A stretch of DNA of 23,570 nucleotides from a virus. Numbering within the stretch: position 1 is the stretch's first letter; every line of letters begins with the position of its first letter. The stretch lies in IMG/VR virus record IMGVR_UViG_3300025577_000064, positions 1-23,570 of that record. One strand, given 5' to 3'. This document shows positions 6,005 to 17,953 of the stretch, piece after piece. The translations under genes were made by a program, and so were the position numbers. The notes below the pieces were generated by a model. The model ran no database searches and was not told where the DNA came from. It worked only from the letters and a program-made list of their open reading frames with translations.

Positions 6005-7657
6005 TTATACTTTATCTACATCTGCAACTATGACTTTACCATAGAATTCCGGACGAACCATCTTCTTAGCGTATCTTGTCATTACCCCTTTACGTGGTGT
6101 AAAGTTTTTCGGGTCATATACAAGTGGTGTCATAATTAACGGTACATATGGTGCGTAAACCGCTCCTGTTTCTAAGAAATTACTTCCTCTGAAACCTACA
6201 AGGATTTGGTTTTCTAACATATATGGGTTTTTGTAAACAGTGTATCTGTTGTTAATCGCCCCTACCTTTTGAACACCCATAGCGAACTGGTTGCTCGTTG
6301 CATCGCCATCAGCACCTGTTGCATATCCTGGAATTGATTCAAGGATTGTTGCAGTTTCTGGTGATACTACTATAAAGTTAGCTCCACCTCTTAGTGTTTT
6401 CTGATGAATTGCGTTACTTACTGATTGGATTTTGTTTCCAAGTGTTTGGAACCAGTCACCTTTTGTGTAAGCATTTGACTCACCTGATGATTCTGCAAAT
6501 ACTCCAGTAGCTGAATCATACTCAAATCCTACTCTTGCTGACCAGTTTTCAGTTTTAGCTGAAGCGTTTGACATCAACATATCAAGAATTTCTAAGTCAA
6601 TTTCCATAGAAATGTACTCAGAAAGTAATGATGTTAATTCTGCTTCTGCGTCTACTGAATGGTAAGCGTTAAGGTCTTGAGCTAATTCTGGAGTCCAAAC
6701 TGCTTTTAACTTACGAGTTTTAGCGATGATTGGAATGCTCTTTAACGCAATGTCTAATTCTGGTATATCAATATCAGTTTCAGGGTTTGCGTCAACATTA
6801 GCTGCTGATGCTTCAAAATCAGTTCTTGTGTAATTTGTTGCTGGTTGTGCGTGATATTTAATCACTGCGTTAAGCGGTTTTGTTGCTACTGATTTTTTAA
6901 CAACAAAACTAATGCGACTATTAACCGCATCGAATTTAGTATGTGCTGGGAAGAATTCATCAAAACCAGAACCTGAGATAGAGAATGCTCTAACTCCGTC
7001 TGTATCAGCATTTGTGTATGCTAATGTTGATGTTGTAATCTTCACAAGACCATTATCTGCATTAGCACCTAATGATACTGAAGCTGATAGGTCTGGTTCG
7101 AATGCTACATCTTCGAAAGAAACTGAACCCGATGTGAATTCATCAGCATCAATGTTTGATGCGTGAATTGCTAGGGAATCAGTTGATTTGTCGTTGATTG
7201 AGTATCCGAATTTTCCTGCGCCGTATAAACCGCCGCTTGCGTCTACGTTAGACCCTGATGTATTACCATATACATCTGAGTTTTCTGTATGGTTACCTGT
7301 TTGTGCAGTTCCATATTTGAAGTCAAGATAGAAAATAAGACCTGAAGGTAAGTTCATAGGTTGAACTGACACAAAGTCTTGAGCTGCTAACTCACCAAAA
7401 ATTCTACGAACTAATGGTAAAGCTACACCGCTCCACTCTTCTGCGTTTTGTCCACCAGTAACTGATGCTTCTTGGATTAGCTGACCTGCTTGGTTTTCAA
7501 GCAATACTGCCATTCCGTGTCTTTTGTTTTCTTCTTCCATACCTTCTAATAAACCTGTTGGTTCCCATTTAGATACTAACTGACGAGTTTGTTCTAATAA
7601 TTGTCTTTGTGGATTATGTCCGTCCATCAAAGTTTCAATTGAATTTAATTTACTCAT
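6005..7657 (-). CDS. 23: Major capsid protein (gp23-like)
   Basis: A 550-residue T4-type major capsid protein, the main shell protein of the head. The N-terminus MSKLNSIETLMDGHNPQRQL and the segment NKRHGMAVLLENQ (44-56) are typical of the family. Residues 60-64, LIQE|A, fit the gp21 maturation site; T4 gp23 is cut after Glu65. ALPLVRRIFGELAAQDFVSVQPM (about 79-101) and the C-terminal MTPLVYDPKNFTPRKG region are characteristic. Residues about 115-260 hold a Gly/Ser/Asp-rich variable segment where T4-like capsid proteins diverge. It starts 12 nt after the scaffold gene with an AGGAG ribosome binding site, and a strong terminator follows its stop. Confidence 0.95.
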   Translation of the reverse strand: MSKLNSIETLMDGHNPQRQLLEQTRQLVSKWEPTGLLEGMEEENKRHGMAVLLENQAGQLIQEASVTGGQNAEEWSGVALPLVRRIFGELAAQDFVSVQPMNLPSGLIFYLDFKYGTAQTGNHTENSDVYGNTSGSNVDASGGLYGAGKFGYSINDKSTDSLAIHASNIDADEFTSGSVSFEDVAFEPDLSASVSLGANADNGLVKITTSTLAYTNADTDGVRAFSISGSGFDEFFPAHTKFDAVNSRISFVVKKSVATKPLNAVIKYHAQPATNYTRTDFEASAANVDANPETDIDIPELDIALKSIPIIAKTRKLKAVWTPELAQDLNAYHSVDAEAELTSLLSEYISMEIDLEILDMLMSNASAKTENWSARVGFEYDSATGVFAESSGESNAYTKGDWFQTLGNKIQSVSNAIHQKTLRGGANFIVVSPETATILESIPGYATGADGDATSNQFAMGVQKVGAINNRYTVYKNPYMLENQILVGFRGSNFLETGAVYAPYVPLIMTPLVYDPKNFTPRKGVMTRYAKKMVRPEFYGKVIVADVDKV

Positions 7658-7668
7658 TTCTTAGTCTC

Positions 7669-8850
7669 CTAAAGTATGTTTGCTAATTTCTTGAATCTTG
7701 CTTTTAACTCTGCTCCTTCTGACAATACCTCTGCTTTCGCTGGTTTTGTAGAACGAGTTGGTTTTGAACTTGAACCTTTAGAAACTGACTCACTTAACTT
7801 TGTTGGTCTTTTAAATGATTCTGCTAATGTAGCGTAAACCAATTTAACTTCTCTTAGGTTTTTAGTTCTGTCAAAGTTTTCTACAACTTTTAGTTTCTGG
7901 TTGTTATTCAATCCAAATGCTCTGAACAATTTGTTCGAGAACAATAGTTTTGCGTTCAATAAATTAACTTCGTTTAATTTACTTCTCATAAAGTGTATTA
8001 CTTCACGATGTTCTTTAATCTCTGCTTTGAGTTTTTCATTCTCTTCCGCGTCTTCTTCTTCTTTGTCTTCTTCAGTAAGTGCTCTTAATACTTCGTCTAA
8101 GTCAAGGTCTTCTTCTTCTTTGTCTTCTGACTCTTTAACCGTATCGTGGTCTGAAAGCTCGTCTCCGGCTTTCTTGTCAGAACCTTCAGATTCTGGTCCT
8201 TGTCCTACTGATGATGAATCGTTAGCTTTATCAGCTACTTTGTTGTCGGCTTTTCCGATTTCAGAAGATACGTCGTTTTCATCGACTTTTTCTTCTTCTT
8301 CTTTGTCTTCCATTTCGTCAACTTGGTCTTCGTCGTCAAGGTCTTTTTCAAGTTCTGCAAGAACTGATTCAAGGTCTAATTCGTCCTCTTCTTCAGTTTC
8401 TTCTTCTCTCATTTCTTCTGAGTCTTCTTCTTCAGCATCTTCAGTTTCCTCTACTGAGTCTTCTTCTTCTGCGTCTTCGTCTTCTCTCATTTCCTCGGCG
8501 TCTTCTTCATCTTTGTCTTCGACTTCTTCCATTTCTTCTTCTGCGTCGTGCATACCTTCTTCTTCATCGTGCATACCTTCTTCAGAATCTTCCATTTCAT
8601 CTGTGTCCATTTCTTCTTCTGCGTCGTGCATACCTTCTTCTTCATCGTGCATACCTTCTTCAGAATCTCTCATTTCTTCAGCGTCTTCCATTTCTTCATC
8701 GGAATCTTCCATTTCAGATTGGATTTTCTTTGACAACATAGATTGTAAACGTGGTGTAAATGCTTCCTCAAGTGCTATCTTAGCGTTTGCAAGTGCAGTT
8801 TCACGAACTGATTTTGCGTCAGCAATAGCTTCTCTTAATAAGTCATCCAT
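7669..8850 (-). CDS. 22: Prohead core scaffold protein (gp22-like) with a long acidic repeat insert
   Basis: A 393-residue protein directly upstream of gp23, the place of T4 gene 22, whose product forms the prohead core and is degraded by gp21. The N-terminal helix MDDLLREAIADAKSV and the C-terminal block at about 270-347 (EKLKAEIKEHREVIHFM, LLFSNKLFRAFGL) are of the scaffold type. Between them, residues about 46-190 and 230-270 are almost entirely Glu and Asp, with repeated GMHDEEE and GMHDAEE units. T4 gp22 is about 270 residues, so the acidic insert explains the extra length. I chose ATG at 8850, not TTG at 8874, because CGGAGAA sits 8 nt upstream of that ATG. LxE motifs (KLNE294, VLSE378) are possible protease cuts. 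Confidence 0.85.
   Translation of the reverse strand: MDDLLREAIADAKSVRETALANAKIALEEAFTPRLQSMLSKKIQSEMEDSDEEMEDAEEMRDSEEGMHDEEEGMHDAEEEMDTDEMEDSEEGMHDEEEGMHDAEEEMEEVEDKDEEDAEEMREDEDAEEEDSVEETEDAEEEDSEEMREEETEEEDELDLESVLAELEKDLDDEDQVDEMEDKEEEEKVDENDVSSEIGKADNKVADKANDSSSVGQGPESEGSDKKAGDELSDHDTVKESEDKEEEDLDLDEVLRALTEEDKEEEDAEENEKLKAEIKEHREVIHFMRSKLNEVNLLNAKLLFSNKLFRAFGLNNNQKLKVVENFDRTKNLREVKLVYATLAESFKRPTKLSESVSKGSSSKPTRSTKPAKAEVLSEGAELKARFKKLANIL
8529..8668 (-). repeat. Perfect 62-nt direct repeat inside the scaffold gene
   Basis: Positions 8529-8590 and 8607-8668 are identical over 62 nt, offset by 78 nt (26 codons), so the frame is kept. Each copy contains two smaller units encoding GMHD followed by acidic residues. 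The translated block is a tandem duplication in the acidic region of gp22. Confidence 0.93.
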
Positions 8851-8915
8851 TATGTTTTTCTCCGTTGGATTCAATATAGTTATTTGGAACTATAATTAGA
8901 TTAGTTTTAATCGGT

Positions 8916-9008: not shown

Positions 9009-9209
9009 TTAATCTTCTTGATTTTTTAATTTTTCGTATTTGGTTCGTAGTTTTGCTTTATTTGTTTGTTCTCTTTTTAACGCTGATGGTTTTTTGTAAA
9101 AAGAACGTTCTTTTAATTCAAACATAATACCTGAGTCTTTTACTTTTCGTTTGAATATTTTTAGTGCTTTTTCTACTGATTGACCCTTACGAATCTGTAC
9201 TTTTAACAA
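9009..9209 (-). CDS. rpsU: Phage-encoded ribosomal protein bS21
   Basis: A 66-residue basic protein with the full bS21 pattern: N-terminal MLKVQIRKGQSVEKALKIFK, then KRKVKDSGIMFELKERSFYK with the family's R-x-F/H-Y-x-K-P signature (RSFYKKPS, residues 36-43), and a Lys/Arg-rich C-terminal helix. bS21 is a small-subunit protein close to the anti-Shine-Dalgarno region of 16S rRNA and acts in translation initiation; viral copies are known and are thought to replace or compete with the host protein. The start is TTG: the first internal ATG would remove the conserved N-terminus. Purine-rich GAGAGTAAAGG precedes it. It sits between the internal-head-protein cluster and the scaffold gene, so it is probably expressed late or with head genes. 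Confidence 0.9.
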   Translation of the reverse strand: MLKVQIRKGQSVEKALKIFKRKVKDSGIMFELKERSFYKKPSALKREQTNKAKLRTKYEKLKNQED

Positions 9210-9231: not shown

Positions 9232-9576
9232 TTATAAAAATCCTAATAAATCGTCTAATTGTCTTAATGCTTTACGATTACCTTTCATAGCTGCTATGAT
9301 TGCAAGTGAGTATCTTCTACCACCCGTTTCAATAACATCTAATAAATCGTCTGCGTCAAGTTTATGTTTTTTTAGAAAATTAGCAACATCATTTATATCT
9401 TTATTAAGTATTTTTGCTACCTTTTCAGTATCTTTAAACTTTGGTTTAAACGCGTCATTTAATTCTTCTTCTTTTTTTAACTTGAATGCTCTTGTTGTGT
9501 CTTCAAGTGTTGGTAATGGTTCACCAAACTTTCTGTCCCATACTTTTGTTTCTTTTAATAGTTTTTTAAGTTTCAT
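9232..9576 (-). CDS. Small head-associated protein with prohead-protease-type leader
   Basis: A 114-residue protein starting MKLKKLLKE|TK, a basic amphipathic leader ending in a hydrophobic-x-Glu site as in T4 capsid-targeting sequences (inferred cut after Glu9). Residues 1-40 are nearly the same as those of the preceding gene, including exact RKFGEPLPTLEDT. The C-terminal half (about 60-114) is helical and ends in AAMKGNRKALRQLDDLLGFL. It resembles the C-terminus of the small leader protein at 16566-16913 (AAIRGKSEGDRMALRQLDR). The protein is thus a mosaic of two paralogous relationships. Its ATG overlaps the upstream stop as TAATG. It is the last gene of the cluster, with bS21 next. No enzyme motif is visible; a packaged internal protein is inferred. 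Confidence 0.65.
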   Translation of the reverse strand: MKLKKLLKETKVWDRKFGEPLPTLEDTTRAFKLKKEEELNDAFKPKFKDTEKVAKILNKDINDVANFLKKHKLDADDLLDVIETGGRRYSLAIIAAMKGNRKALRQLDDLLGFL

Positions 9577-9920
9577 TATTTTTTTGAATTTTTGTAAGCT
9601 TCGTGGGCTGTTGTTAATAAATATATTAAGTCGTGGTGAGTATCTGCTTGGTGTTGTTTTTTAACTGACCTTTCTAAATATTTAACCGCATCTTTTAAAA
9701 GTATGACATCTTTTCTCAACATATTATATCCCATAGGTGAAATCTGGTCTCTTTTGTCAGTTGTACTGAATGAATAAGAAACTTCTTTTACTGGTTCTTC
9801 GTTGACTTCTTGTTCTTGTTTTAATTTAAACTCTTTAGAAGTATCTTCAAGTGTTGGTAATGGCTCACCAAACTTTCTTTCGTTCCAAAGGTTTTCGTTT
9901 AATAGTTTTTTAAGTTTCAT
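9576..9920 (-). CDS. Small head-associated protein with prohead-protease-type leader
   Basis: A 114-residue protein starting MKLKKLLNE|NL. It shares its first 40 residues with the downstream gene (RKFGEPLPTLEDT is identical), then has its own second half. A second possible cut, EVNE|EP at about residue 41, falls exactly where the two proteins stop being alike, so the shared part could be released as a separate peptide. The remainder (about 42-114) is helical and charged, with a His-rich KKQHQADTHHDLIYLLTTAH stretch. Stop and start codons overlap as TAATG at both ends. The function is unknown; it is inferred to be carried in the prohead core. Confidence 0.65.
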   Translation of the reverse strand: MKLKKLLNENLWNERKFGEPLPTLEDTSKEFKLKQEQEVNEEPVKEVSYSFSTTDKRDQISPMGYNMLRKDVILLKDAVKYLERSVKKQHQADTHHDLIYLLTTAHEAYKNSKK

Positions 9921-10576
9921 TATCTTTTACCTTCAGCTTTTGCTTTATAGTTTTTATCCACATAATTGAAAAACTTTTTCTTTTTCTCATCAGAACCTAA
10001 TTCGTCTGGTGATGAAATTCCAAATTTCTTCATTGCTTTTTGGAAGAATGCTTCGTAGTCACCTTCTTCAATGGTATTGCTACCATATTCTTCTTTATCT
10101 TTATCTTCATCTGAGTTAGCATATTCTGGAATATCATAGTAACGATTTAAAATCATACCCATATCTTCATACAATCCAGCTAATCTTTGTTGAACTGATG
10201 ATGCTTCTTCAGCGATTTTTGAAAATGATTTTGAGTGATTGGTTAATTCTTTCATATTACGAGTTACCGTAACTTTATCAAACCAATCTTCTGTTTCTTG
10301 TAATGTATGTGATGCTGCCATTTCTGCTACCTGTGATAGTGATTTTGCAGTTTCTTTTAATGATTGTTGTTGATAAAGAGCTTCCCCTAACTTGTTATAG
10401 TTTTGTAAAGCTTCTTTAACTTGGTCTGATGATACCTTCTTTGTTTCAGATGTTTCACCATACTTTTCTTTTACTATTCCTGATAAAGAAATTTGTCCTG
10501 CATTAATTGCTGGTGTAGAAACTACTCCACCCACTAATGAGAAATTTTCTTTTAATAAATCTTTTAACTTTGCCAT
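9920..10576 (-). CDS. Head-associated helical protein with prohead-protease-type leader
   Basis: A 218-residue protein starting MAKLKDLLKE|NF, a leader of the same form as its neighbours (inferred cut after Glu10). The middle (about 50-150) is strongly helical, rich in Gln, Glu and Lys, and probably coiled coil. The C-terminal segment FFQKAMKKFGISSPDELGSD followed by EKKKKFFNYVDKNYKAK looks like a small module I recall from structural proteins of other large phages. The start has an AAGGAG ribosome binding site and a candidate promoter element just before it, so it may begin a sub-transcript (9920-9232). No catalytic motif is seen. Confidence 0.65.
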   Translation of the reverse strand: MAKLKDLLKENFSLVGGVVSTPAINAGQISLSGIVKEKYGETSETKKVSSDQVKEALQNYNKLGEALYQQQSLKETAKSLSQVAEMAASHTLQETEDWFDKVTVTRNMKELTNHSKSFSKIAEEASSVQQRLAGLYEDMGMILNRYYDIPEYANSDEDKDKEEYGSNTIEEGDYEAFFQKAMKKFGISSPDELGSDEKKKKFFNYVDKNYKAKAEGKR

Positions 10577-10609: not shown

Positions 10610-11155
10610 TTATTTTTTTCGTCTATTGTATTTGTTAAATCTTTCTCTTACATCATAGTATAATCTGGACAATACTTCTCTTTTAGAATTACTTGCGTCT
10701 CTAATATTACCTGTACTGATAGCTTTTGATAAGTCCATCTTGTCATACTTGTTATTTTTTAAGTCTGATGTAAAAATACTTACTGCTCGGTTTTGAGCTT
10801 TTCCAATTTCTTTAGCTGCTTTGTTCACTGCTTCTTGTGAAAACTTCATTGCTTCCGGATTAGACCATTTAACATTACCACTAATGTTTGGTGATTCTTT
10901 TAAATGTTTTTTTGATATCAAGTGATTGTTTATTCTTTGAAATCTATTCTTTAATATCATATAATCGTCCCAAAAATCACTTAACATTTTCTTTTCTTTT
11001 GCTGGTAGATTTGACCTTTCGTAATCTCTTAAATACTTAACACCTTTGTCCATTGCTGTATCCATACCACGAGTGATAGCTCTTGATACTTTTCTCCACT
11101 CTTTTGCACCAATAGTGGTATCTTGTTCATTTAGTATGTTTTTCAACTTAATCAT
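10610..11155 (-). CDS. Head-associated basic protein with prohead-protease-type leader
   Basis: A 181-residue protein starting MIKLKNILNE|QD, with an inferred gp21-type cut after Glu10. The rest is highly basic and helical: Lys/Arg/Asn-rich throughout, ending YYDVRERFNKYNRRKK. That would suit DNA binding inside a filled head, as for T4 internal proteins. No known domain is recognised. Its ATG overlaps the stop of the 356-aa gene as TAATG, indicating translational coupling, and a 33-nt gap with a candidate promoter follows it. Confidence 0.65.
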   Translation of the reverse strand: MIKLKNILNEQDTTIGAKEWRKVSRAITRGMDTAMDKGVKYLRDYERSNLPAKEKKMLSDFWDDYMILKNRFQRINNHLISKKHLKESPNISGNVKWSNPEAMKFSQEAVNKAAKEIGKAQNRAVSIFTSDLKNNKYDKMDLSKAISTGNIRDASNSKREVLSRLYYDVRERFNKYNRRKK

Positions 11156-12225
11156 TATCTAAATTTTCCTGACATAATTTGAAGTGTATATCTTTGAACA
11201 TCTTTCGCATACCCCTCAACATCACTTCTTGAAAAGTCTGCTGTTCCGTAATCTATTTTGTCTTGCTTTTCTTGTTCTAATGCACTCAAGTAATATCCAT
11301 AATATCTATACAATTGACTTAAGTCATCACCTACTGCTGATGCTAATGCGTAAGCATCTGATTCTTGAGTAGCGGTTCTTCTATTGGATTGAAATCCGTC
11401 AATAATCTTTTTAACTTTACCCGTTGCTTTAACACCACCAAGAGCTCCGTCAATAATTTGTTGACAAAAGTTTGCTGCTTTCTTAACTTTTTCTGCTAAT
11501 TTCTTAGGGTCGTTTAATCTTTTCTTTAACATTTCGTCAAAATAAGATTGATTAATTCTTCTAAATTCATCATTGGTTGCGAATTTACTTGCACCAAATT
11601 GTGCTGCTTGTCTCATTTGTCGTTTAACACCAGCACCCATATAAGGTTGGTCTTCTGCTAAATTAATGTGATGAAATTTAATTCCTGGTATTTTCATTAC
11701 TGATGGTAATGATTGGTATCCTAATTCATTCATACCGAAAGTTTGTTTTCTTCTTGGATAAGGTAAATCTCTTGGTCCAGCATCTACGGTTGCAACTCTA
11801 CCTTTACTATATCCACCACTTGTTACTCTTTTACCTGTTACGGTTTGAACTCTTGTTGCTGGTTCGTAGTCGTGTGTCCACCACATTGGTTTTCCATCTT
11901 TCAACACTAATACTGCTGTAAATTTTCTTAATCTTAAATTATCGTTTGACCAATATCCTTTTTTACCTTTGGTCGGAATCGTAACATCTTTATCAACATA
12001 TGCAATCTCAATACCTTTTTTCTTTGGTTTTGCGTTGGTTTCGATTTCACTATCTGTGATTTTATCCCATTCAATCCCAAGTTTTGCTCCCCACATAAAG
12101 AATTGACTTTCTAATCCTTGCCAATGATTTGTTAATGCTCTAAGTTTACCTGCTGCGAACTTTTCAGTTATTAGAGTTTTAGGTTGAACTTTATTTTCAT
12201 TTAATATATCTTTTAATTTAATCAT
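11155..12225 (-). CDS. Head-associated 356-aa protein with prohead-protease-type leader
   Basis: A 356-residue protein starting MIKLKDILNE|NK, with a second candidate site LITE|KF at residue 20. After the leader, residues about 30-175 form a mixed, Trp- and Gly-containing globular region (NHWQGLESQFFMWGAKLGIE; KKGYWSNDNLRLRKFTAVLV; GKPMWWTHDYEPATRVQTVT). The C-terminal half is helical with many Lys and Gln. I do not recognise the fold. It is one of the largest single proteins in the cluster and could be a packaged enzyme, but no catalytic motif is clear. Both ends overlap neighbours as TAATG. Its protein-coding status is certain; its role is inferred from the leader. Confidence 0.65.
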   Translation of the reverse strand: MIKLKDILNENKVQPKTLITEKFAAGKLRALTNHWQGLESQFFMWGAKLGIEWDKITDSEIETNAKPKKKGIEIAYVDKDVTIPTKGKKGYWSNDNLRLRKFTAVLVLKDGKPMWWTHDYEPATRVQTVTGKRVTSGGYSKGRVATVDAGPRDLPYPRRKQTFGMNELGYQSLPSVMKIPGIKFHHINLAEDQPYMGAGVKRQMRQAAQFGASKFATNDEFRRINQSYFDEMLKKRLNDPKKLAEKVKKAANFCQQIIDGALGGVKATGKVKKIIDGFQSNRRTATQESDAYALASAVGDDLSQLYRYYGYYLSALEQEKQDKIDYGTADFSRSDVEGYAKDVQRYTLQIMSGKFR

Positions 12226-12661: not shown

Positions 12662-14749
12662 CTATAATGTTACGTTTAGACCTGTGTTCTTTTTTATCAT
12701 CACACGTAATGTGTCTCCGTAGACTCCTTTTTCTTTTGATTTAACTTTTATTTTACCTGCTCTTATTGCTAAAAATTCCATATCGTATAAATCTAATGAT
12801 GTTAATCTCATTCTAATATGTGAAACACCTTTTGAGTTTCTCATAATTTTAAACACTAATGATTTCTTTCCACCTGAGTTTCCAAATACATAATCTTTAG
12901 CTCCTATCATATACAATGCTTTAGGACCGATTTGGTCAAGAGCAGTATTTGCTTCTCTTTTATCACGAAATTCATTTACTGATTCAACTGGATTCAATAA
13001 ATAATTGGTTGCTTTTTCTAAATAATTCTGTGATAAAGTAATTTTGTCTGACCACCAACTTGGTAATGAATCTTCTTTGTTCATTCCGTTTAGTTTGTTT
13101 AGTAGTTTATTACTATCATCAACCATAATCATCACTTTTCTTTTTGATGATGCGACATCAGTATGTCCGTCTTCGTTGATGTTTTCTTTCATATCTGACA
13201 TCCACTCTAAACCTGGAACTACTATATTTTTAACTTTGTGTTTCTTTTTCATTGCATTTAAATCTTTTGCGAACTTTTTTAAATGTGGTGGTAGTTCACC
13301 TGTCTTTTCAAATTCATCTCTCATCTTTTTAACTGCTGATGGATTCATTGATTCATTAACATTTTCTAAATTTGCTTTGTCCATTTTATTTTCAATGTCA
13401 TACAACACTCTACCCATTTTTTTGGTTAGTTGTTTTTCTTTATCACCTAAGTAATAAAAAGAGTTTTCATCATAACCATTACTTGACTCAATTGTTTGTC
13501 TTAAAATTCTTGTAGAAATTTTAAATTTACCATCTGATAAATATTTTTTTAGTTGTGTTTGGTTTGGTGCATAATGTCTATTATCTTTACCCTCTTGTTC
13601 TACTGCTGGTTTGATAAATTTTCTAAATAATTTCTCAACTGCTTTTAGTTTATTGATATCTCGTTTGATTGGGTGTTTTGCTAATGCACCTTTTAAACCA
13701 TTAGCTTGTTTGATTATCAAGTTTATTGATTGTAACCAAAGTTTTGTGTATTCGTTACCTGTTTGAACTTCATCGTTTCTTTCTTGTATTACACTTTCAC
13801 TCATATCTTTTAATGCTTGTTTAAATGCTTTTTTATCTTTTTTGTAATCTGCCATTACCTGGTCAAACCCTAACATATCAACCATATCTGTAAACATTTC
13901 TTTTTCTTTTTTACCTAATTTACTGATAATCTTTTTAGATTTTGCTGACATTTCGTTTACTGATTCTTTCATAAATTCGTTGTCTAAAAATGAAAGAATA
14001 CCACTATTGGTTTTAGGTAGTTTTTTACCTGTTATTTGGTTAAATATTGCGAGTGAATATGGTTGGTCATATCGTAATCTTGATTTTAATCTTCTGATAT
14101 CTTTTTTCTTTATTGCAGTTACCAACTCATCATAAACACGTTTTGCGTTTTCTTTATTTTGAGCAGTAACACTTTTAATTACATCTTGTTTTGTATATTT
14201 TTGTGCACCTTTATCACCCTTTTTAAGAGCCACATCATAATTTCTCAACATTTGTTTTATTGAATTTTTTAGGTTGAAATAATCTTTCTTTGTAAATAAT
14301 TTATACAATTTTTCAAAATCTCTATTTTCGTTTAATGACTCACCTATTTTTTTCATTTGGTCGTGTGATTTTTCCAACTCCATACCTGGTTTAAAATTCT
14401 TTCCTTTGTTCATCACAACAAACACAACACTTTTAGGATTTACTGATTTGACTTTACCTTGAGCACCATAATGTGGACAAGTAGGATTAACATCTTTTAC
14501 GATATCACCTGAACCATAAGTGTATTCAGATAACTCTTGCTTAATCATTTCTTTGAGTTTACCCAATATTTCTTTTTTCATTGGTAGTCCTTTGTGTTTA
14601 GTTGATGCGAACTTTTTCACATCTGTCTTCTTCATATCTTTGGCTACATCTTGTGCGTCTTTGTTAAACTTTGACGCAGGTTGTTCACCTTTTTGGATTG
14701 ACCTAACAATCCCCATAAATTTTTGTTGCTTTTTACTTAATGCTGGCAT
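12662..14749 (-). CDS. Putative polyprotein of small internal head proteins with repeated prohead-protease sites
   Basis: A 695-residue protein of clearly modular build. Residues 1-60 (MPALSKKQQKFMG ... FASTKHKGLP) look like the DUF3008 type of small phage/bacterial protein. After that, hydrophobic-x-Glu motifs occur at LSE75, SLNE141, SVNE266, VIQE323, NVNE466, NINE526 and SVNE593, several embedded in E-S-[LV]-N-E or close variants. They divide the chain into pieces of about 75, 66, 125, 57, 143, 60, 67 and 102 residues. Piece 76-141 has GDIVKDVNPTCPHYGAQGKV; piece 527-593 begins DGHTDVASSKRK and has SLPSWWSDK; piece 594-695 has IGPKALYMIGAKDY and LYDMEFLAIR. I recall modules like the last two from other large phages. 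The motifs match the leader ends of neighbouring genes and gp23's site. Processing by gp21 is inferred. The ATG overlaps the upstream stop as TAATG. Confidence 0.72.
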   Translation of the reverse strand: MPALSKKQQKFMGIVRSIQKGEQPASKFNKDAQDVAKDMKKTDVKKFASTKHKGLPMKKEILGKLKEMIKQELSEYTYGSGDIVKDVNPTCPHYGAQGKVKSVNPKSVVFVVMNKGKNFKPGMELEKSHDQMKKIGESLNENRDFEKLYKLFTKKDYFNLKNSIKQMLRNYDVALKKGDKGAQKYTKQDVIKSVTAQNKENAKRVYDELVTAIKKKDIRRLKSRLRYDQPYSLAIFNQITGKKLPKTNSGILSFLDNEFMKESVNEMSAKSKKIISKLGKKEKEMFTDMVDMLGFDQVMADYKKDKKAFKQALKDMSESVIQERNDEVQTGNEYTKLWLQSINLIIKQANGLKGALAKHPIKRDINKLKAVEKLFRKFIKPAVEQEGKDNRHYAPNQTQLKKYLSDGKFKISTRILRQTIESSNGYDENSFYYLGDKEKQLTKKMGRVLYDIENKMDKANLENVNESMNPSAVKKMRDEFEKTGELPPHLKKFAKDLNAMKKKHKVKNIVVPGLEWMSDMKENINEDGHTDVASSKRKVMIMVDDSNKLLNKLNGMNKEDSLPSWWSDKITLSQNYLEKATNYLLNPVESVNEFRDKREANTALDQIGPKALYMIGAKDYVFGNSGGKKSLVFKIMRNSKGVSHIRMRLTSLDLYDMEFLAIRAGKIKVKSKEKGVYGDTLRVMIKKNTGLNVTL

Positions 14750-15198
14750 TAATATAAATCTTTTTGTTTTCTTGCACTCGTCATAGTTGAGTTTTTAAAT
14801 ATTGATTTAACTTGGTCAAGTTGAGAAGCTCTTATTGCTTTTATATAATCTGCTTTTTGACCTTTTTCTTCTCGTTTAAGTTGAGTGTTAATCATATTGG
14901 TAAACTTTTTAAATATTGCTTCAAATCTATTTTGATAACCACCTAATCTTTTTTGACCGATTACTGCAGTATTGATATCTGCAACTAAAGCACTTAAATC
15001 CAATCTTCTTTTATTTGGTTTCTTATTATCATAAAATTTTCCATAAGTCAATAGTTCTGTAATTTCTTTATATACTTTAAGGATTGCGTCAACTTCTTCA
15101 ATTGCGTATCCGTGTGCAGAACTTTTACTATGGTCAATAAATCCTCTTCTTAACTGATTTGGAAAACCTGCTTCTAATAAACTTTTTAACTTAATCAC
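14749..15198 (-). CDS. Head-associated 149-aa protein with prohead-protease-type leader
   Basis: A 149-residue protein starting MIKLKSLLE|AG, one of the best matches in the cluster to a T4 capsid-targeting leader (hydrophobic-x-Glu, then Ala-Gly). The remainder is basic and helical, for example FIDHSKSSAHGYAIEEVDAI, RFEAIFKKFTNMINTQLKRE and a C-terminal Lys-rich tail. The start is GTG, overlapping the upstream TGA stop as GTGA, so translation is probably coupled. The stop overlaps the polyprotein start as TAATG. No domain is recognised; a packaged internal protein is inferred from the leader and context. Confidence 0.65.
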   Translation of the reverse strand: MIKLKSLLEAGFPNQLRRGFIDHSKSSAHGYAIEEVDAILKVYKEITELLTYGKFYDNKKPNKRRLDLSALVADINTAVIGQKRLGGYQNRFEAIFKKFTNMINTQLKREEKGQKADYIKAIRASQLDQVKSIFKNSTMTSARKQKDLY

Positions 15199-15950
15199 TT
15201 GTTATACCTTGTTGTGATTTTTGATAATTCTTTTAAATTTTCATCTGATTTTTCTTTAATATCAATACCAACATTCATTCCGTCTTCGTCAAAAGCATCT
15301 TGATAGTAGAAGTCTTCTATTTCATCTGCGTCCATTTCTTCACCATCAGCGTTAAACATTTTTCCGTCTTTTATTTTGACTCCGTCTAAATCATAATCAC
15401 CTTTAAGGTTTTTGACATCATCTGCAAATTGTTGTGGGCCTGATGATTTAATTTTTCCATCTTTGATTTTAGTTGCTAATTCTGGTTTATCTTTAGGTTT
15501 ATCACTTACCGCATCAACGATATCGTTTGATAGTTTTTCACCTTCTTCTTTATACTTATCTATTTCTTTTTGATATTCAGCTTCTGATTTACCTTTTGAT
15601 GATGGAACATTATCTCCATAAGTATCAATTTTCTTTTTCAAATCTGAATGGTCTCCACCAATATCATCTAATGCTTGATTAATCAATGGGCCGTCTTTAT
15701 ATGGATTTAATCCACCATCTTTTAAACCTTTTGTTAGTGTATCTGCTGTTTTATTTCCTTTAGGTTTCGTATTTTTTTTAGGGTCATCTATGACTTTATC
15801 TTTACCGGCTACTTTAACAACCGTACCTGGTCTCATCTTGTGCTTTTTCTTGTATGCTGCAAAATCCTCTGGTGTTTTGAATTCTAATTCATTGATGTTA
15901 CGATTTCCGTATCTTGTTGATATTTCTGATAATATTTTTAAATCTTTCAT
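15195..15950 (-). CDS. Acidic/Lys-rich head-associated protein with leader-like sequence at both ends
   Basis: A 251-residue, highly charged protein rich in Lys, Asp and Gly, probably extended or partly disordered. The N-terminus KDLKILSEISTRYGN contains a leader-type site LSE|IS, with a second candidate NINE|LE at residue 22. The C-terminus ENLKELSKITTRYNK is a degenerate copy of the N-terminal segment in which the cleavable Glu is Lys. Residues about 24-55 (FKTPEDFAAYKKKHKMRPGT followed by VVKVAGK) look like a small motif seen in other phage structural proteins. The gene starts with TAATG overlap at the gp21 stop and ends with GTGA overlap at the next gene. Being next to the protease, it may be a core/scaffold component; the function is otherwise unknown. 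Confidence 0.62.
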   Translation of the reverse strand: MKDLKILSEISTRYGNRNINELEFKTPEDFAAYKKKHKMRPGTVVKVAGKDKVIDDPKKNTKPKGNKTADTLTKGLKDGGLNPYKDGPLINQALDDIGGDHSDLKKKIDTYGDNVPSSKGKSEAEYQKEIDKYKEEGEKLSNDIVDAVSDKPKDKPELATKIKDGKIKSSGPQQFADDVKNLKGDYDLDGVKIKDGKMFNADGEEMDADEIEDFYYQDAFDEDGMNVGIDIKEKSDENLKELSKITTRYNK

Positions 15951-16564
15951 TACTCACCCCTTATGATATGGTTGATTATATCTTCTGCTTTACAATACTC
16001 TCCACAAGTTCTACCTTGTTGTGGTTCTACGGATTCATTCATTGGATGTAGAAATGCTCCGTGAGTTGATGGATTAGAAACAAAATCAAAAGCGATTAAC
16101 TCAAAGTCATCTCCTACTTTTGAAACGGTATCTCCGTTGGATTCTCTAACCATTTCAACACTACCTAATCCTCGTGAACTGATACCTAATTTGATACCAT
16201 TCTTAAATAATTCTCTTAAAATATTACCACTTGGTGTTGTTAAGATTTCACAAGTTCCAACCAAATTGTCTCCTTCGAAATGCATTTCAGTAACATTGTG
16301 AGAAACATTTTGTAAATTAACAACTGAACTATCTGGGTGGTCTAATTCACCTAATGCTCTTTTTTGTTTTACAAAATTCTCATCATACTTTTTTGACTCT
16401 CTCATCAAAATTTCTCTCGGATATACTCTTCCGTTTTGGTTTTTTGCTTCTGCTCTTTGTAATACACCTTTAACAACTAACTTTCCGTTGTTTTCTTTCA
16501 TCGCCTCATTTATCTGAGTCGGTGTTATTTCAAATGGTATATAATCTACGATAACTTGTTTCAT
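15950..16564 (-). CDS. 21: Prohead core protease (gp21-like)
   Basis: A 204-residue homologue of T4 gp21 (212 aa), the serine protease that matures the prohead by cutting capsid, scaffold and internal proteins after hydrophobic-x-Glu. Matching blocks are GRVYPREIL (45-53), RALGELDHPDSS (69-80; catalytic-type His76, T4 has QALGELNHPP) and GISSRGLGS (127-135; nucleophile Ser129 or Ser130, T4 has GVSSRGLGS). QINE|A near the N-terminus (Glu20) and PMNE near the C-terminus (Glu177) are plausible self-processing sites. I chose ATG at 16564 (MKQVIVDYIPFE), which follows the upstream stop by a base and has AAGGA upstream; ATG at 16588 would overlap more. It heads the run of genes whose leaders carry its type of cleavage site. 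Confidence 0.93.
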   Translation of the reverse strand: MKQVIVDYIPFEITPTQINEAMKENNGKLVVKGVLQRAEAKNQNGRVYPREILMRESKKYDENFVKQKRALGELDHPDSSVVNLQNVSHNVTEMHFEGDNLVGTCEILTTPSGNILRELFKNGIKLGISSRGLGSVEMVRESNGDTVSKVGDDFELIAFDFVSNPSTHGAFLHPMNESVEPQQGRTCGEYCKAEDIINHIIRGE

Positions 16565-16565
16565 T

Positions 16566-16913
16566 TTATAAAAATCCTTTTTTCTCATCTGAATATTTTT
16601 TGTAATATCTGTCTAATTGTCTAAGTGCCATTCTATCACCTTCTGATTTACCCCTAATTGCAGCCATAACCATTTGTTTGTCCGACAAATCACCATCTTT
16701 CATTATGAAAAGTAAATCCTCTGCTTTAAATGGTCTACCTGGTTTGTCATACTTGTTGATAAAATCTACTACTTGTTTGGGTGTAAGTGGTGGATTAGAG
16801 AACCCGCTAATTCTCGCATTCTTTACTAAAGTTTTAACATCTGAGTCTGAAGTTCTAGCTCTCTCAGTTAATTTACCAAAATATCTTTCGTATTGTTCTT
16901 TTAAATTTTTCAT
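16566..16913 (-). CDS. Small head-associated protein with leader, paralogous to the 9232-9576 product
   Basis: A 115-residue protein starting MKNLKEQYERYFGKLTE|RA, a longer version of the cluster's leader with a candidate gp21 cut after Glu17. ATG at 16913 overlaps the upstream stop as TAATG, which is why I prefer it to the upstream in-frame ATG at 16994. The mature part carries KQVVDFINKYDKPGRPFKAE and ends MAAIRGKSEGDRMALRQLDR plus a basic tail. This C-terminal region resembles the product of 9232-9576 (VANFLKKHKLDADDLLDVIE, AAMKGNRKALRQLDD). It lies directly before the protease gene, the place of core proteins in T4. The exact role is unknown. Confidence 0.65.
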   Translation of the reverse strand: MKNLKEQYERYFGKLTERARTSDSDVKTLVKNARISGFSNPPLTPKQVVDFINKYDKPGRPFKAEDLLFIMKDGDLSDKQMVMAAIRGKSEGDRMALRQLDRYYKKYSDEKKGFL

Positions 16914-17953
16914 TATTTTAAATTTCCTACTTTGTTTGCCATCTTGACTAATCTTTCTGAAATCTTGGTCAATGCTTTGTGTGTATTTTTCCAATAGTCT
17001 TCTGACTTTATTTTTAATTCTGTTTTTAATTTAAGATTCATCTTTACGGTTCTGTCTAATTCGTTTAATGCGTCTCTGATTTCTCTCATTGAACGACCAA
17101 TTTTTTGTTTTGGTGTTAGGGATTCGTCGTTTCTATATTCGTGATAACGACCCTCACCTAACATTTGTTTTGTTTTTAAAAATTGTGCAAGTTTTCCTAT
17201 TTCTTTTTTAGATGTTAGGATAGTTTCATAATACTCGTTGTATTCTCTATCTACAAGTGTTTTATCGCCCATTTTAGCAATCTTGAAATAATCTTTTTGA
17301 AGTTTCTCTAAATTTTTATGAAGTTTTTGTAATGCACTAACTTCTTGTTTAGTAACTTCATTTACTGGTTTGTATCCACCGGCAGTCGCTATTTTTTTTC
17401 TTTTCTTTTTATCTTTTTTTCTACCACCACTAAATGCCATTGGTGTGAAGTAATGACCTGGTCCACCTGGATAAGTTCCAGCTGTTCCTGTTGTTGATAC
17501 TTCGTCTACTTCTCTTTTGTGTCTTTTGACGATTTCCATAACGTGCATTTTGATAAAGTTTGTATCTCTTTCAAAATCCTCACCAATCATTTCTGCAACT
17601 CTACCTAATTGAAACGATATAATATTTGTTAATTCAATTCCGTGTTCAACTGGGTCGTGGTCTACTTCTTCACCATTAACGACTTGTTTTTCCATTTCAA
17701 AGATGTGGTCCAACTCTTTTGCTGAACTAATGACTAATTCTTTTGCTTCATCATTGAGTTCTTTTTCCATTAATTTATTGTAAAGAATAACTGCGGACTT
17801 GCAGATATCAAAATGTTTGGTTTGAAATCCTAAGATATCAATGTTTTCACCACCACCGAAATGTTCTGGTTTGTTATCTTGTTCGTTTAATTCTCGTAAA
17901 ACAAGATGACGAATAGCTTCTTTTAATTTACTTACTTTGACGCGTCTGGACAT
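16913..17953 (-). CDS. Probable prohead core/internal protein, 346 aa, helical
   Basis: A 346-residue, highly charged, mainly helical protein. Residues 1-24 look like a leader: basic, with SKLKEAIRHLVLRELNE|Q, an LNE site as in the downstream cluster. The middle holds a Gly/Pro-rich region (TGTAGTYPGGPGHYFTPMAF, about 153-172) followed by a Lys cluster and another candidate site KPVNE|V (about 199). The C-terminal half is coiled-coil-like, with many Lys and Leu. It lies between portal and prohead protease, where T4 has core genes 67 and 68, but I see no direct similarity to those. The start has AAGGA upstream and overlaps the previous gene by 26 nt. Confidence 0.6.
   Translation of the reverse strand: MSRRVKVSKLKEAIRHLVLRELNEQDNKPEHFGGGENIDILGFQTKHFDICKSAVILYNKLMEKELNDEAKELVISSAKELDHIFEMEKQVVNGEEVDHDPVEHGIELTNIISFQLGRVAEMIGEDFERDTNFIKMHVMEIVKRHKREVDEVSTTGTAGTYPGGPGHYFTPMAFSGGRKKDKKKRKKIATAGGYKPVNEVTKQEVSALQKLHKNLEKLQKDYFKIAKMGDKTLVDREYNEYYETILTSKKEIGKLAQFLKTKQMLGEGRYHEYRNDESLTPKQKIGRSMREIRDALNELDRTVKMNLKLKTELKIKSEDYWKNTHKALTKISERLVKMANKVGNLK

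Follow-up and report, generated by a model that had tools for sequence, protein, structure and literature searches.

The question raised by this locus is whether a single gene, lying among the head genes of a virus, encodes a chain of small internal head proteins that is cut apart by the prohead protease. The window, that is, the whole stretch of 23,570 nucleotides that was analysed, covers positions 1-23,570 of IMGVR_UViG_3300025577_000064, a virus record of which it forms a fragment. An earlier note on this DNA had described a 695-aa frame at 12662-14749 as a putative polyprotein of about eight such proteins. The frame exists and is read on the minus strand, from 14749 to 12662, the opposite strand being crowded there with stop codons. 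All seven hydrophobic-x-Glu motifs are found where they had been claimed, at Glu75, 141, 266, 323, 466, 526 and 593, with the endings ELSE, SLNE, SVNE, VIQE, NVNE, NINE and SVNE in that order. Counted as plain [LIM]xE, the motif is not enriched in the protein (9 occurrences versus 7.8 in shuffled sequences); the narrower [LIV][NQS]E occurs 7 times versus 1.45 in shuffles (p=0.00025), and E[SN][LIV][NQ]E is present in 5 copies against an expectation of 0.01. The proposal that a leader-like helix precedes the motifs holds at Glu75 (KLKEMIKQELSE/75; a slash marks the predicted cut here and in Table 1), whereas elsewhere short ES[VIL]NE-type junctions are found instead. Since the longer motif recurs five times and the helix stands ahead of Glu75 only, what recurs is a short peptide of the approximate form E-S-V-N-E/, not a repeated leader. 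A second possible site lies 4-5 residues N-terminal of several junctions (E137, E262, E318, E522). The seven sites do delimit eight pieces, although the first of them (residues 1-75) consists of DUF3008: instead of a 10-residue T4-type leader, the polyprotein has this domain at its N-terminus, and it carries its first site at residue 75.

Table 1. Features of the window; modules and junctions belong to the 695-aa polyprotein.
Feature	Position	Strand	Description
gp23-type major capsid protein	6005..7657	-	phrog_138 E=2e-74; T4 gp23-type chains E=1e-33
Acidic scaffold-like core protein	7669..8874	-	net charge -92
114-aa protein	9232..9576	-	leader MKLKKLLKE/
114-aa protein	9576..9920	-	leader MKLKKLLNE/
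218-aa protein	9920..10576	-	leader MAKLKDLLKE/; Mel-JY01 homologue by sequence inspection
181-aa single protein	10610..11155	-	leader MIKLKNILNE/
356-aa single protein	11155..12225	-	leader MIKLKDILNE/
M7, aa 594-695	12665..12970	-	alpha/beta; phrog_9437, PHROG E=2e-14
Junction 7	12971..12985	-	ESVNE/593
M6, aa 527-593	12971..13171	-	predicted helical hairpin
Junction 6	13172..13186	-	ENINE/526
M5, aa 467-526	13172..13351	-	helical
Junction 5	13352..13366	-	ENVNE/466
M4, aa 324-466	13352..13780	-	helical
Junction 4	13781..13795	-	SVIQE/323
M3, aa 267-323	13781..13951	-	helical
Junction 3	13952..13966	-	ESVNE/266
M2, aa 142-266	13952..14326	-	all-helical
Junction 2	14327..14341	-	ESLNE/141
M1b, aa 76-141	14327..14524	-	predicted KOW/SH3-like beta barrel; AlphaFold strands 83-134
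Junction 1	14525..14539	-	QELSE/75
M1a, aa 1-75	14525..14749	-	DUF3008 + leader-like helix ending KLKEMIKQELSE/; Pfam PF11450 E=6e-6
149-aa protein	14749..15198	-	leader-like (M/V)IKLKSLLE/A; directly upstream of polyprotein
gp21-family prohead protease	15950..16588	-	phrog_207 E=5e-53; PDB 5jbl (T4 protease) E=1.6e-12

The setting of the gene is that of a head core cluster. In the window, TerL, portal, core-type ORFs (292 and 346 aa), the protease and several further ORFs lead up to the 695-aa ORF, beyond which come a row of ORFs with leader starts, a bS21-like 66-aa ORF, the acidic scaffold-like protein and the gp23-type capsid protein. The synteny portal-292-346-protease-polyprotein-leader row-scaffold-capsid protein is repeated in many contigs, and in many of them the polyprotein gene sits between the equivalents of genes 21 and 22/23. 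The gp21-type (S80-type) protease that the earlier note presupposed is indeed encoded here, with its catalytic Ser in the aligned SRGLGS and its His in ELDHP, where the 5jbl chain has ELNAP; we read the Ala of the latter as an inactivating mutation. This enzyme, which is likely the cutter of the polyprotein, has a predicted site of its own, TQINE/A at aa 28, and the capsid protein has a predicted maturation site, QLIQE/A, at aa 63. Across relatives, [IV]-x-E is retained at capsid position 63, with Ala, Ser or Asn as the next residue, and near residue 28 of the protease, with Ala or Ser next, and on the strength of T4 homology both positions are likely maturation sites. The motif of these predicted sites (LIQE/A and QINE/A) is common to the polyprotein junctions, whose P1′ residues are more varied than the Ala/Ser found at the capsid and protease sites.

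Several other features of these neighbourhoods were recorded. The scaffold-like protein contains near-exact tandem acidic repeats (DSEEGMHDEEEGMHDAEEEM). The 66-aa ORF at 9009-9209 (minus strand) resembles ribosomal protein bS21, and a Mel-JY01 ORF at a comparable place is annotated RpsU; phage bS21 genes by head genes are known from freshwater Bacteroidetes phages, on the opposite strand there (PMC9723584). Judged by protease and capsid protein, the closest named relatives are Microcystis phage Mel-JY01 and Flavobacterium immuto phages, near whose protease no polyprotein of this type was seen. Mel-JY01 does encode, near its prohead protease, a 388-aa hypothetical protein (L081:15395-16561) with a C-terminal domain that by eye is ADP-ribosyltransferase-like, in which it would resemble T4 Alt. 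In the uncultured 484-kb phage LR756508 the protease ORF (L127:544-2268) bears an intein-like insertion right after ELDHPD, by the catalytic histidine, and ORFs near the protease begin with another leader type, KLRKIIREEI. In relatives, the equivalent of the ORF upstream of the protease (16913-17953 of the window) is a multi-junction polyprotein with an M4-like module (L007:2366-4012, L014:7679-8776, L031:3418-4515, L033:4121-5218).

It had also been stated that the gene lies next to a row of single-module relatives. Such a row exists, its members starting with 9-10 residues of the type MIKLKDILNE/, and the loci retrieved contain 122 distinct leader-bearing ORFs, among them NUDIX hydrolase-like proteins (e.g., L078:1199-1639, L058:45-473). 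The expectation that individual pieces would occur on their own elsewhere is likewise borne out by M6 and M7, both found behind this same leader. M7 is preceded in most polyproteins by a VNE or INE junction, and in L054, L055 and L059 it is fused behind ES[VI]NE/RM..., while in L049/L050 it forms its own gene, with the start MIKLKELLNE/RM..., beside a shorter polyprotein. In L037, L058, L064 and L073, M6 has a gene to itself and follows a MIKLKxLLNE-type leader, with ~25 extra residues between the two. As M6 and M7 are found behind either, leader (MIKLKELLNE/) and junction (ESVNE/) are interchangeable for these two modules. For T4 IPIII, the N-terminal 10 residues are enough for targeting, with processing governed by residues 8 and 10 (PMC9026906); these correspond to P3 and P1 here, and Asp at position 10 prevents IPIII processing. 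Among further observations on leader-tagged proteins, the two 114-aa proteins and many relatives have W-x-R-K-F-G-E-P-L-P-T-L right after the leader cut site, a conserved new N-terminus that occurs within polyprotein modules too (L044, L047); one scanned module matched Zeta_toxin/AAA_33, and L058:3145-4041 is ADP-ribosyltransferase-like by eye.

DUF3008 comes first in 37 of the 37 DUF3008 polyproteins that have two or more junctions and a complete 5′ end, and the few multi-junction ORFs lacking it have a leader-like start, the protease and scaffold ORFs excepted, so that DUF3008 or a leader looks like the entry ticket. We found no paper on DUF3008 in the open-access literature searched; the domain exists as a stand-alone protein in cyanophages. 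Those of Bellamy (L083:3001-3465) and S-SM2 (L086:3001-3474) keep VNE/INE in their C-terminal part, and a cytidylyltransferase encoded two genes upstream in S-SM2 has the leader-like start MKSFFQFLSE.

The modules behind this first domain behave as exchangeable cassettes. A scan of IMG/VR gave 296 relatives, and the comparison used 79 distinct loci from among them; GTDB genomes gave no relative at the sensitivity used. The architecture of the window is M1a-M1b-M2-M3-M4-M5-M6-M7, and relatives differ from it in both module set and order: M1a-M1b-M3-x-M6-M2-M5 in L017, M1a...M6-M7-M3 in L098, M1a-M1b-x-M4-x-M6-x-M3-x-M5-M7 in L026, and an ending in M6-M5 in L005. L012 has the order of the window minus M2, the deletion being exact between ESLNE and ESVNE, and a copy of M2 that is 94% identical stands elsewhere in the order in L017. 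M3 was found in 15 different upstream contexts; M5 follows DUF3008 directly in L063/L070, M2 in L017 and M6 in L005; and M4 is also present within a second, non-DUF3008 ORF in L007, L014, L017, L030 and L033. Clustering the modules of 73 polyproteins yielded 99 distinct neighbour pairs, with seven different upstream neighbours for one cluster. Synonymous distances between the window and L017 vary widely by module (M2 0.05, M5 0.19, M1a 0.28, M6 0.42, M1b 0.58), which indicates separate module histories. Thus, comparison of the relatives shows modules being added, dropped and reordered at the junctions, and the suggestion of fused cargo modules in one precursor gains support from this reordering and deletion of whole pieces at the motifs.

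The coincidence of cassette borders and motifs can be expressed in numbers. When borders were taken from homology alone, [VILMF]xE was found within 2 residues of 79 of the 88 starts of modules and of 48 of the 62 ends, versus 10% of random positions in the same proteins, a nearly nine-fold enrichment at the starts for which binomial p-values overstate the case, related contigs being non-independent samples. A more circular test used the alignment ends internal to the 695-aa protein, 87 of 141 of which fall within 5 residues of the seven sites; the null of circularly shifted sites had a mean of 15.9, and the <1% of shifts that matched the observed value presumably lay near the true positions. 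Predicted structure points the same way. In a whole-chain AlphaFold model (23 sequences, mean pLDDT 66), all seven sites fall in segments with pLDDT <50, which hold 26% of residues, sites 526 and 593 sharing one long poorly modelled stretch (504-606). A second model, of residues 467-695, has M6 as a helical hairpin and M7 as an alpha/beta domain, with confidence falling at the M5/M6 border and a low-confidence helix (pLDDT about 57) continuous across E593. Predicted domain borders therefore lie at the sites, as had been anticipated, save that the last one, E593, is ambiguous. The same data bear on an unlikely alternative, an uncut multidomain virion protein that is packaged whole and in which ESVNE is a flexible linker for domain recombination: linkers also lower model confidence, domain shuffling at linkers generally occurs, and the SPN3US prohead protease spares 42 head proteins (PMC10052503). 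However, neutral linkers would be free to lose the Glu or the hydrophobic residue or to change the distance between them, whereas the linker here is almost always [VIL]-x-E, as in the leader ends and the predicted capsid and protease sites, and one module can occur behind either leader or junction.

The ESVNE junction is conserved at the DNA level as well, as the 15-mer GAATCNGTAAAYGAA, which has 154 copies on the coding strand versus 4 on the opposite one. In 74 distinct ESVNE contexts the serine codon is TCN in all 74 (background about 0.77) and the valine codon GTA in 71 (background 0.43-0.47); the ENINE and ENVNE junctions use other codons. Conservation of this kind suggests a recombination seam, although the shared codons would fit either a seam copied by recombination or recent common descent. 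Tentatively, the junction may combine a protease site with a DNA seam, by which these phages would keep assembling fresh combinations of injected proteins out of a common pool of modules: the 15-mer would let homologous recombination insert, delete or reorder cargo cassettes, and each cassette from the pool would be released by the head protease.

What the pieces are is suggested by their size, charge and conservation. They are predicted to measure 57-143 aa (6.6-16.7 kDa), similar in size to the internal proteins of T4, and seven of the eight are basic, with a pI of 9.1-10.2, M6 being the exception. Purifying selection acts on the modules, with dN/dS values of 0.07-0.8 (0.14-0.26 for M1b), and is weakest for M7 and M2. 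For M1b, Foldseek returned NusG KOW/NdhS with a probability of 1.00 but a best E of 0.016; M2-M6 received no functional assignment from Pfam or PHROG, the profile search of M7 against PDB gave no credible match, and the fold search with residues 467-695 gave none either. These properties also speak to a reading that we regard as quite improbable, a core/scaffold-type protein like T4 gp22, gp67 and gp68, chopped into pieces that leave the head and are functionless after assembly. It would share the gene neighbourhood, and multiple cleavage is known for T4 core proteins and SPN3US propeptides. Yet the pieces here are mostly predicted to be folded, mostly basic and conserved as units, whereas the scaffold of this virus is acidic; the modules are swapped freely, the same leader tags NUDIX-like proteins in relatives, and the polyprotein has no gp22/67/68-type family match in PHROG or Pfam. 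Moreover, M7 stands alone in unrelated phages, among them phiM12, where it lies outside and away from the head genes, and others with much smaller genomes, which argues for cargo rather than scaffold.

Taken together, the gene is quite probably a precursor of internal head proteins, cut at its junctions into pieces that are packaged and injected. The precursor would enter the prohead core through its N-terminal DUF3008 module with the leader-like helix, or through core affinity; the gp21-type protease, encoded 1.2 kb upstream, would cut after [VIL]-x-E at the seven junctions and free eight small, mostly basic proteins, which by analogy with T4 IPI-III would remain with the DNA and then be injected. 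The sequences show directly the cassette mosaic, the match of junctions and motifs, the exchange of junction and leader for M6 and M7, the protease and the head-gene locus, whereas we infer cutting, packaging and injection, as well as any anti-defence or host-takeover role. T4 Ip1, Ip2 and Ip3 are injected, and each inhibits a different GmrSD enzyme (PMC12373910), which by analogy makes an arsenal role of the modules plausible. A very unlikely variant would have the chain injected whole, as a polyvalent-type protein, with a different protease releasing it inside the host cell. In phages and plasmids, polyvalent proteins do join 2-15 domains and have been likened to viral polyproteins (PMC5512222), but the chain described here is without a peptidase domain (Pfam found DUF3008 alone above the cut-off, and neither peptidase nor other catalogued polyvalent domains) and its junction motifs match the targets of the phage's own prohead protease.

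If the precursor is cut as predicted, it would represent a novel means by which a virus fills its capsid with a variable set of proteins for injection. It would be a true polyprotein in a DNA phage, cleaved by the capsid-maturation protease and delivering many internal proteins per targeting event, and splitting at [VIL]-x-E would offer a general rule to find small, probably injected proteins hidden in 'hypothetical' ORFs. Each of T4 Ip1-3 acts against a single subtype of restriction enzyme, which makes the cassette pool a candidate source of anti-defence proteins as well. Earlier work has described leader-tagged internal proteins encoded singly, as well as polyvalent proteins and propeptides cut at several places. 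In the open-access literature, with subscription papers and preprints outside the search, we found no description of a shuffled-cassette precursor with head-protease junctions. Judging from sequence comparison, this marine T4-like phage and many of its relatives string modules into one precursor via sequences that look like head-protease cut sites.

The closest comparison is with T4 IPI, IPII, IPIII and Alt (PMC9026906, PMC3012670, PMC12373910), which share with this system the protease family, the head-gene locus, the 10-residue leaders (here on the neighbouring genes) with processing determinants at P3 and P1, and small, basic, diverse proteins with fast turnover between relatives. In T4, however, each gene encodes a single protein with a single leader, whereas here up to about eight modules per gene follow one N-terminal module, joined by bare 5-residue junctions and reordered as cassettes. 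Polyvalent proteins such as P1 DarA/DdrB and N4 vRNAP (PMC5512222) likewise place many domains in one phage polypeptide and are shuffled between elements, but their release is thought to occur via an embedded metallopeptidase, while here the junctions match a capsid-maturation protease. SPN3US and phiKZ head proteins (PMC10052503, PMC5694885) have several prohead-protease sites in one protein, the extra cuts there breaking up a departing propeptide, whereas the cuts predicted here would separate individually conserved modules. Finally, the genes for T4 gp22, gp67 and gp68 adjoin gene 21 and the proteins undergo multiple cleavage, yet these are assembly factors reduced to small peptides and not shuffled-module mosaics, whereas the polyprotein described here is such a mosaic.
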